In this document: piece after piece, positions 46,707 to 49,468 of the stretch
How the letters are laid out: each line of letters starts with the position of its first letter
Numbering within the stretch: the stretch's first letter is position 1
Assembly: GCA_030425045.1 (NCBI GenBank)
Contig: JAUHVL010000009.1
Location: 62,001-126,000 of the forward strand
Length of the DNA: 64,000 nucleotides
From: a bacterium
GTDB lineage: Bacteria > Bdellovibrionota > Bacteriovoracia > Bacteriovoracales > Bacteriovoracaceae
Direction: 5' to 3'
Notes under the pieces: model-generated
Databases searched by the model: none
Seen by the model: only the letters and a program-made list of their open reading frames with translations
Told to the model about the DNA's origin: nothing
Program-made: the position numbers and the translations under genes

Positions 46707-47438
46707 CTACGGTGCAGCGTGCAAACCGACTTTTAGCGAGAGAAAGTCCCTCGTTTTATCAGAGCAAAAGTTTTCGGGGATATTTTTAATAATTTCTCTG
46801 GCGAAATTTAGCTTATCTTGATCGAGTTTTTCATCTACTAAAAACTCAAACTCCTCTTCTGAGTTAAGAGGAGTCTCGACATCTCGACTTGCAGGAATCA
46901 CTCCACTTCTCAGCCCTTTACCGTCAACGTACTCGATAAAGGTATCCATTAGAATAATATGAAATCCTGAAATTTCTCCATCGGTGTGACGCCAAACAAA
47001 GATTTCCATTGGGCCATCCGCTTGCAACCAGCACATAAGATTACTTGGCAGCTCAATACCAAGTTCTTCTTTATGAAGCGGTCTAAAACTTGCCACAATA
47101 TTATCGACACAAAGAAAGCTTTTGAGATCTTCTTGAGTTTTAGTTTCTTCAAAAGAAACACCGAGTCTCTCTCCTTTCACCCAAACAACTTTTCCCTCAA
47201 CATTGGTGGAAACTTTTTTCCAATGAAGCGCACCGGTTAAGGGGTCTCCCACTCGATACTGGTGGCCTCCGTTTTTTAGGGTTAATTGCATACCTTGGTA
47301 GTTAATATCTCTGACAGCAAACACTCTGTTTTCATCATTGTGCAAAGCTTTAAATGTTAAAAACGAAAATGGAAAACGAGGAAAAGTTCTTTTCTCTAAA
47401 ACTTCTGTTCCTGACTTTACCAAACTTAAATGGTCCAT
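46707..47438 (-). CDS. PilZ-domain protein (probable c-di-GMP receptor)
   Basis: The N-terminal 115 residues carry the PilZ c-di-GMP signature: the RxxxR-type site KRTFPRF (Arg17, Arg21) and the [DN]xSxxG site read as RDINYQGMQL (S replaced by N-Y). A WVKGERLGVSFEE strand follows. The C-terminal half (about 125 residues) lacks a known output domain. The degenerate second motif weakens c-di-GMP binding but does not exclude it. It lies downstream of glpX's promoter region and is divergent from pgsA. Confidence 0.78.
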   Translation of the reverse strand: MDHLSLVKSGTEVLEKRTFPRFPFSFLTFKALHNDENRVFAVRDINYQGMQLTLKNGGHQYRVGDPLTGALHWKKVSTNVEGKVVWVKGERLGVSFEETKTQEDLKSFLCVDNIVASFRPLHKEELGIELPSNLMCWLQADGPMEIFVWRHTDGEISGFHIILMDTFIEYVDGKGLRSGVIPASRDVETPLNSEEEFEFLVDEKLDQDKLNFAREIIKNIPENFCSDKTRDFLSLKVGLHAAP

Positions 47439-47715
47439 TTTTTCCCCTTAATTTAATCAAAACGGATAATTTTTAATATTTTAAATCAAATTGGCATGAG
47501 ATGTTACTGGGAAGATATCCTCCCACTGATTTATTTTTAAGGTCACATTCATAGAAATGCTGTCTAGACCATGTTATGTTTAAGCTGTCTTTTTTAATGG
47601 GTCACTTATCGAAACTGAAAATAGCGAACAAACACAATCACAACTAGAGGCCAAGCAAGCCTTACGAAGAGAATGGGATATCGATAACCTTCCCAACAGA
47701 CTAACCATCTTTAGA

Positions 47716-48273
47716 ATGCTTTTAATTCCGATTATTATTGTTAGTCTTTTTTTGTGTAAGGATAATATCAATCTATTACCTGAGTATCATAAAGAGCTTG
47801 GTTATATTGCTGCTTGGACATTTGTTATCGCTTCCATCACCGACTTCTTAGATGGATATATTGCTCGAAATAGAAAAATTGTGACGGTCTTTGGCTCTTT
47901 TCTCGACCCCGTGGCCGATAAATTTCTCGTGATCTCTTCAATAATTCTTTTAAATGATCTTCACCGTCTTCCCGTTTTAATTAGTATCATTCTTGTTTTA
48001 AGAGAACTCTATATCACTTCCCTTCGCCTGCTAGCACTTGAAAGAGGATTTAAAGTTCCCGTCGGTGCTTTTGGAAAATGGAAAACAGCTTTTCAAATGA
48101 TTGGTATTCCTATGCTTATGGCCTATGACAAACCATGGGGAATTCCTATGATTACCATGGGAAATATTTTTATTTACCTGGCCAGTTTTTTCTCACTCTA
48201 TTCTGCATTTGAGTATTCCTTTAATTTATTTAAAAAGTTAAAATTAAAACGTAATCAAATGCTCAACTCTTAG
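47716..48273 (+). CDS. pgsA: CDP-diacylglycerol-glycerol-3-phosphate 3-phosphatidyltransferase; true start uncertain
   Basis: PgsA makes phosphatidylglycerophosphate. The catalytic CDP-alcohol phosphotransferase motif DGYIARNRKIVTVFGSFLDPVADK is intact (DG-x2-AR-x8-G-x3-D-x3-D), and four to five membrane helices follow. From the only ATG in frame (47716) the product is 185 aa, but the conserved N-terminal NLPNRLTIFR motif is encoded just upstream in the same frame, with hydrophilic coding back to about 47584 and no ATG, GTG or TTG. Translation must therefore begin at a rare codon or after a frameshift, or the sequence has lost a base. The N-terminus is unresolved. Confidence 0.9.
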   Translation: MLLIPIIIVSLFLCKDNINLLPEYHKELGYIAAWTFVIASITDFLDGYIARNRKIVTVFGSFLDPVADKFLVISSIILLNDLHRLPVLISIILVLRELYITSLRLLALERGFKVPVGAFGKWKTAFQMIGIPMLMAYDKPWGIPMITMGNIFIYLASFFSLYSAFEYSFNLFKKLKLKRNQMLNS

Positions 48274-48286
48274 CTAGGGGTCACTC

Positions 48287-49468
48287 TTGGGACAATTACC
48301 AAAATATTTAATCACGGTCAGCGGGCCTGATCATGCCGGTATTACATCAAACCTTATGGATATCTTGGTGCAAACAAAAACCAATATCCTCGATATGGGT
48401 CAAGCTGTTACCCACGGTCTTCTTTCATTAAGTTTTTTAATTGAGCTCGATAAAAATGATCACCACCACCCGGTCCTAAAAGAGTTACTTTTTGCGGCCA
48501 AAGATAAAAATCTCGAACTTACTTATAAAGAAATTGAACAAACTACTTCACACCAATACTCGGGAGAGAAATTTGTCCTTCACTGCATCTCTCAACAAAA
48601 TTTAAGTGCAGAATTTTTGAGAGACCTCTCTACTCTTTTAGCCGAACTCAATATCAATATTCATCGTATTGAAAATATGGCCCTCGAAAATTTCAAGGCT
48701 TTAGAAATGATCACCACCATTTCCCCCGATATTGACCTAGCCCAAGTAAAAGAAAAACTACTCAATACTTCATCCCACCATGCTGTCGATATTGCCTTTT
48801 TAAAAGATAATGTTTTTAGAAGATCAAAACGCCTAATTGTTTTTGATATGGATTCGACCTTAATTCAAACAGAAGTAATCGATGAGATTGCGGACTTGAT
48901 GAATGTCAAAGATAAAGTGGGAGAAATTACCGAAAGAGCGATGAATGGCGAAGTGGATTTTGATCAGGCCTTGAGAGAAAGAGTTTCTCTTTTAAAAGGA
49001 CTTGAAGTCTCTAAGATGAAAGAAATTCTCGATAACCTTCCTCTTACTCCGGGTACTGAGCAATTTATTAATACTGTCAAAAACCTTGGTTATAAAACGG
49101 CCCTTATTAGCGGTGGTTTTTCTTATTTTGCTGATGCACTAAAAGAAAAACTTGGCATAGACTACGCTTTTTCAAATGAACTTCAAATTGTTGATGGTAA
49201 ACTCACAGGTCTTGTCGAAGGGGCCATTATCAATGCCTCTCAAAAAGCATTACTACTCAAAATGATTGCTCAACAAGAAAAGATCAGTTTAGAGCAAGTG
49301 GTGGCCATCGGTGATGGGGCCAATGACCTACCGATGCTTTCAACCGCAGGACTTGGTATCGCTTTTCATGCCAAAGATATCGTAAGAAAAAAAGCCGATC
49401 ATCATATGAGTCACGGACCGATGACGACGATTCTCTACTTTCTAGGAATACCCCTCGATCAAATTTAG
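48287..49468 (+). CDS. serB: Phosphoserine phosphatase with N-terminal ACT-like domain
   Basis: SerB removes phosphate from L-phosphoserine in serine synthesis. The 393-aa chain has an ACT-like N-terminus (YLITVSGPDHAGITSNLMDILVQTKTNILDMGQAV), then the HAD core: FDMDSTLIQTEVIDEIADLM with the catalytic Asp-x-Asp near 187, ISGGFSYFADALKEKLG (motif II) and GDGANDLPMLSTAGLGIAF (motif IV). TTG start preceded by GGGGT, 13 bp after the pgsA stop. It closes a two-gene unit that ends at repeat copy C. Confidence 0.94.
   Translation: MGQLPKYLITVSGPDHAGITSNLMDILVQTKTNILDMGQAVTHGLLSLSFLIELDKNDHHHPVLKELLFAAKDKNLELTYKEIEQTTSHQYSGEKFVLHCISQQNLSAEFLRDLSTLLAELNINIHRIENMALENFKALEMITTISPDIDLAQVKEKLLNTSSHHAVDIAFLKDNVFRRSKRLIVFDMDSTLIQTEVIDEIADLMNVKDKVGEITERAMNGEVDFDQALRERVSLLKGLEVSKMKEILDNLPLTPGTEQFINTVKNLGYKTALISGGFSYFADALKEKLGIDYAFSNELQIVDGKLTGLVEGAIINASQKALLLKMIAQQEKISLEQVVAIGDGANDLPMLSTAGLGIAFHAKDIVRKKADHHMSHGPMTTILYFLGIPLDQI

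Follow-up and report, generated by a model that had tools for sequence, protein, structure and literature searches.

Bacterial genes that start at codons other than ATG, GTG or TTG are of a known kind, with infC, sigR, ccpN and cvfC1 as described examples. The IF3 gene infC starts at AUU, AUA or AUC and is autoregulated by IF3; to our knowledge, AUC-started genes outside infC have rarely been proposed. In Streptomyces the GTC start of sigR is repressed by IF3 (available part of PMC5472188), and in S. aureus ccpN starts at AUA and cvfC1 at AUU, both with extended Shine-Dalgarno (SD) sequences (available part of PMC13009471). As far as the accessible text of these two sources goes, the use of a non-canonical start as a low-output device is established. 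Third-base mismatches and expanded-wobble pairs gave very low peptide yields in vitro, according to the accessible portion of PMC10158994. Our literature search found no paper on the initiation codon of pgsA, broader matches on pgsA start codons being judged by titles and abstract openings, and at the same depth nothing on start codons in Bacteriovorax.

Here we analyzed the pgsA gene in a 64,000-nucleotide stretch of DNA (the window) from a member of the Bacteriovoracaceae. No ATG, GTG or TTG precedes the conserved N-terminal block in its frame, and judging from the nucleotide sequence pgsA is probably translated from the near-cognate codon ATC 47608. Like infC, it would then be a likely essential gene with an ATH start; infC starts at ATA in this genome, and its candidate with the best SD is ATC in some relatives. 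With sigR it would have in common that the one start codon is non-standard and ends in C (PMC5472188, available part), and with ccpN and cvfC1, whose starts lower output, an ATH start of an ordinary chromosomal gene (PMC13009471, available part). The features discussed below are these:

47608..48273, plus strand: pgsA coding sequence as proposed (start ATC 47608, 221 codons plus stop), from TIGR00560, the boundary model and the 7drj match
47608..47610, plus strand: proposed ATC start codon, the only in-frame ATH codon from the TAA to the EWDIDNLPN block
47599..47602, plus strand: weak SD match GGGT, about 6 bases 5' of the ATC, duplex energy -3.6 kcal/mol
47671..47715, plus strand: conserved N-terminal block EWDIDNLPNRLTIFR, 5' of the first in-frame ATG, from column counts in 95 relatives
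47716..47718, plus strand: first standard in-frame start, an ATG within the conserved region, rejected as sole start
47571..47597, plus strand: short ORF from ATG 47571 to TAA 47595-47597, without SD
47597..47647, plus strand: overlapping 16-codon ORF in frame +1, from ATG 47597 to TAG 47645, SD energy -1.1

The identity of the gene is clear from profile searches, as it scores 150.8 bits with TIGR00560 (the NCBIfam model for pgsA, cut-off 109.1 bits) and 134.6 bits with PF01066. The CDP-alcohol phosphotransferase motif, DxxDGxxAR...GxxxDxxxD, is present in the translation as DFLDGYIARNRKIVTVFGSFLDPVAD, and the match to the relative with a solved structure (PDB 7drj) begins at the N of NLPNRLT. 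The closest matches in a named genome collection were mostly from Bacteriovoracaceae and Halobacteriovorax relatives. To the left, on the minus strand, lies a divergent gene with a PilZ domain (46707-47438); to the right lies serB, with an apparent TTG start at 48287. Three CDP-alcohol transferases were found in the genome and only pgsA passes the TIGR00560 cut-off: the second is PssA, and the third (31.9 bits) has archaetidylinositol phosphate synthase as its best match, also under the cut-off of that family. The gene described here is therefore the only clear pgsA of the genome. Its product catalyzes the committed step to acidic phospholipids, and pgsA is likely an essential single-copy lipid gene.

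The frame is open from 47584 to 48270, between TAA 47581-47583 and the stop at 48271-48273, and the first in-frame ATG, GTG or TTG after the TAA is ATG 47716; the opening of the frame at this TAA and the lack of a standard start before 47716 had been pointed out in the initial annotation and were borne out by reading the frame. The ATG at 47557 is also in the pgsA frame but 5' of TAA 47581; together with seven further codons it forms an ORF (47557-47583) from which pgsA could be reached only by stop readthrough, and the residues are unlike those of a pgsA tail. By our own estimate, 44 codons without ATG, GTG or TTG arise by chance with a probability of roughly 12% at ~35% GC, so the gap by itself is unremarkable. 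It becomes meaningful because the conserved block falls within it.

To place this block in its family we compared distinct copies of at least 50% identity drawn from 178 loci, in all 97 including our own. A pgsA match was present in 120 of 129 family genomes, only part of these loci entering the family set; apart from our own, all genomes in the set are from other genera, and identity to the closest pgsA is about 72%. One copy, the 96th (L129), failed the motif search and was left out; a second locus from that genome (L006) carries an ATG. In all 95 remaining copies an in-frame ATG, GTG or TTG lies 5' of the conserved block, our copy being the sole exception, and none (0/95) shares the feature. 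In four of the 95 no ATG is present and only GTG or TTG is available, and weak starts therefore recur in the family. The E. coli pgsA begins at ATG and hence offers no parallel. Among 50 more distant loci (L061-L110) the motif was absent in 8 and matched in 42; one of the 42 (L084) appeared to be without a standard start and was rejected as an exception, the motif match being false. In two other genomes, pgsA matches carry in-frame stop codons (G015:C58:8882-9472 and G046:C26:6843-7484).

The peptide encoded in the gap agrees with that given in the initial annotation and contains the PgsA N-terminal motif noted there, and the motif is close to invariant. In the NLPNRLTIFR columns L, P, the second N, T and the final R are each conserved in 95/95 family copies, the first N in 94 and the I of the preceding IDN in 93. 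Translation could begin at ATG 47716, the first standard in-frame start, and give a protein without NLPNRLTIFR. We find this very hard to credit, because the block precedes that ATG and would be deleted, while it is near-invariant in the relatives and intact here; the ATG itself has no SD (-0.7 kcal/mol). We take the conserved block 5' of ATG 47716 to be translated.

To locate the start more closely we made use of the residue composition of the N-terminal tails. D, E, Q, H and N abound in the family tails between start and block, whereas F, C, Y, W, R and L abound in the frame 5' of the starts. A boundary model was trained on the 95 relatives with our own gene left out, their starts being picked from the SD energy, with ATG given a bonus. 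The best of 29 candidate positions was exactly codon ATC 47608, the only ATH codon among them, and the boundary fell there in 954 of 1000 bootstraps and one codon later in the remainder. In cross-validation the model was exact in 32/78 cases, within one codon in 41/78 and within four in 62/78; this is moderate precision, and we therefore use it as a guide and not as proof. If the ribosome initiates at ATC 47608, the protein would read (f)M-ETENSEQTQSQLEAKQALRREWDIDNLPNRLTIFR..., with (M)ETENSEQTQSQLEAK as its N-terminal peptide. Scores based on codon usage had too little power to locate the pgsA start.

A different route into the frame had been suggested in the initial annotation, next to a rare ATC- or ATT-type start: a +1 shift resembling that of prfB, from the short ORF that starts at ATG 47571. 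This ORF does run to TTT-TAA as described, and at CTT TTT TAA (47589-47597) a stop would stand in the A site after the slippery TTT-T, so that a programmed +1 frameshift, or slippage of the transcript by one base at the T6 run, would join the frames. In contrast to the prfB type, the region has neither an SD-like stimulator 5' of the slip site nor a coding upstream frame. The leader MLCLSCLF... looks untranslated, as do the added residues AVFFNGSL, which place the boundary at least 14.6 bits (about 15) worse than ATC, and ATG 47571 has no SD (-0.9 kcal/mol). Such a shift is absent from all relatives and unneeded by them, and we regard it as the least probable of the readings considered, whereas the rare-start option stands, with ATC 47608, the only ATH codon, on the boundary.

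At ATC 47608 the SD energy of -3.6 kcal/mol is more favorable than that of ATG 47597 (-1.1) and of the two ATGs at 47571 and 47716. An energy this good or better was found at 55% of 283 ATG starts of the genome and at 25.5% of 2000 random places, and the SD is therefore weak support for ATC. The leader is unstructured, folding no better than its shuffles (z +1.05), an Rfam scan found no family in it and one weak chance match inside pgsA, and a promoter scan 5' of pgsA gave no convincing site. We also looked at GGTCAC, which lies 5' of the pgsA ATC and recurs before serB TTG 48287 and at 47541. The serB TTG is preceded by GGGGTCACTC, like GGGTCACTT before the pgsA ATC; the likeness is probably due to chance. 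GGTCAC as a lineage-specific ribosome site was rejected (92 observed vs. 76 expected, near chance), and GGTCA is rare before starts (6/283 in this genome). At ATC 47608, initiation may be aided by the GGGT element and by a leader that is AU-rich and unstructured, and the normal initiator tRNA may give a low yet sufficient level of it.

A sequencing or assembly error is the alternative that deserves most attention. A true ATG 47608 may have been substituted, or a base may be missing from the GGG that follows ATG 47597 or from its vicinity, in which case the tail would begin MGSLIETENSEQ. The normal start in all other family copies speaks for an error, as does the draft state of the assembly (3.97 Mb, 91 contigs), and natural AUC starts are expected in very small number too. 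Moreover, ATG 47597 is just one base out of the pgsA frame and its implied boundary is only 3.5-4 bits worse than that of ATC, but it has no SD. The lost base was one of the options put forward in the initial annotation. We compared 1059 ORFs from 1.2 Mb of a relative (G002) with 1.01 Mb of our genome. Neither a frame change nor an internal stop was seen in 150 orthologues (128,436 aligned nt), and a smaller first pass had given 0 frame changes in 42 orthologues. By our calculation the frameshift rate does not exceed about 2e-5 per base (95% limit), a figure that concerns indels only and does not cover substitutions. The assembly is thus clean and indel errors are rare. Of 114 genes with N-termini suited to a start test three were flagged, and after checking pgsA alone was without a standard start; in each of the other two, L323 (GTG) and L318 (ATG), an ordinary start lies a short way into the alignment. 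A single-base error at pgsA itself is still carried as a serious but lesser possibility. The relative weights given here to the ATC start, the error, ATG 47716 and the shift are our judgement and were not computed.

Near-cognate initiation is normal in this lineage for infC, where it goes with strong SDs. Our own infC (L198:1465-1467) starts at ATA after GGAGGTG (SD -12.6). For 30 infC loci, taken from 30 genomes of the phylum, the candidate with the best SD is ATT, ATA or ATC in 28, and 22 have no standard start within the examined stretch. Across the phylum the best infC candidate varies among these three codons. The infC start is conserved and its SD strong, whereas the pgsA ATC is unique in its family and lacks a strong or extended SD that could offset the weak codon (-3.6 vs. 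-12.6). It differs likewise from sigR, which has a AGGAGGTG site, a start demonstrated by mutation and regulatory elements described as highly conserved across Streptomyces (PMC5472188, in the part available), and from ccpN and cvfC1, whose starts are kept in relatives and accompanied by extended SD motifs (PMC13009471, in the part available).

The initial annotation's idea that lipid synthesis would have an unusual control point here is speculative: the pgsA ATC fails two marks of the known control genes, strong SD and conservation, and we refrain from giving it that label. On sequence grounds, the weak SD and the non-conservation would argue against an evolved control switch. We infer that a ribosome start at ATC 47608 would bring low output and sensitivity to IF3. 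That pgsA is kept at low output, with the AUC start discriminated against by IF3 and an overlapping AUG decoy ORF (47597-47647) in competition with it for 30S subunits, seems improbable to us; if true, it would couple membrane lipid synthesis to IF3 and ribosome status. Most likely, the lineage formerly had an ATG or another ordinary start, which would have mutated to ATC or drifted there via weak starts.

If the irregularity is a sequencing error, it is a useful warning on start calls in draft genomes. Gene finders would overlook or shorten AUC-started genes. If the ATC start is true, a likely essential enzyme can be supplied by near-cognate initiation that is weak and lacks a strong SD.
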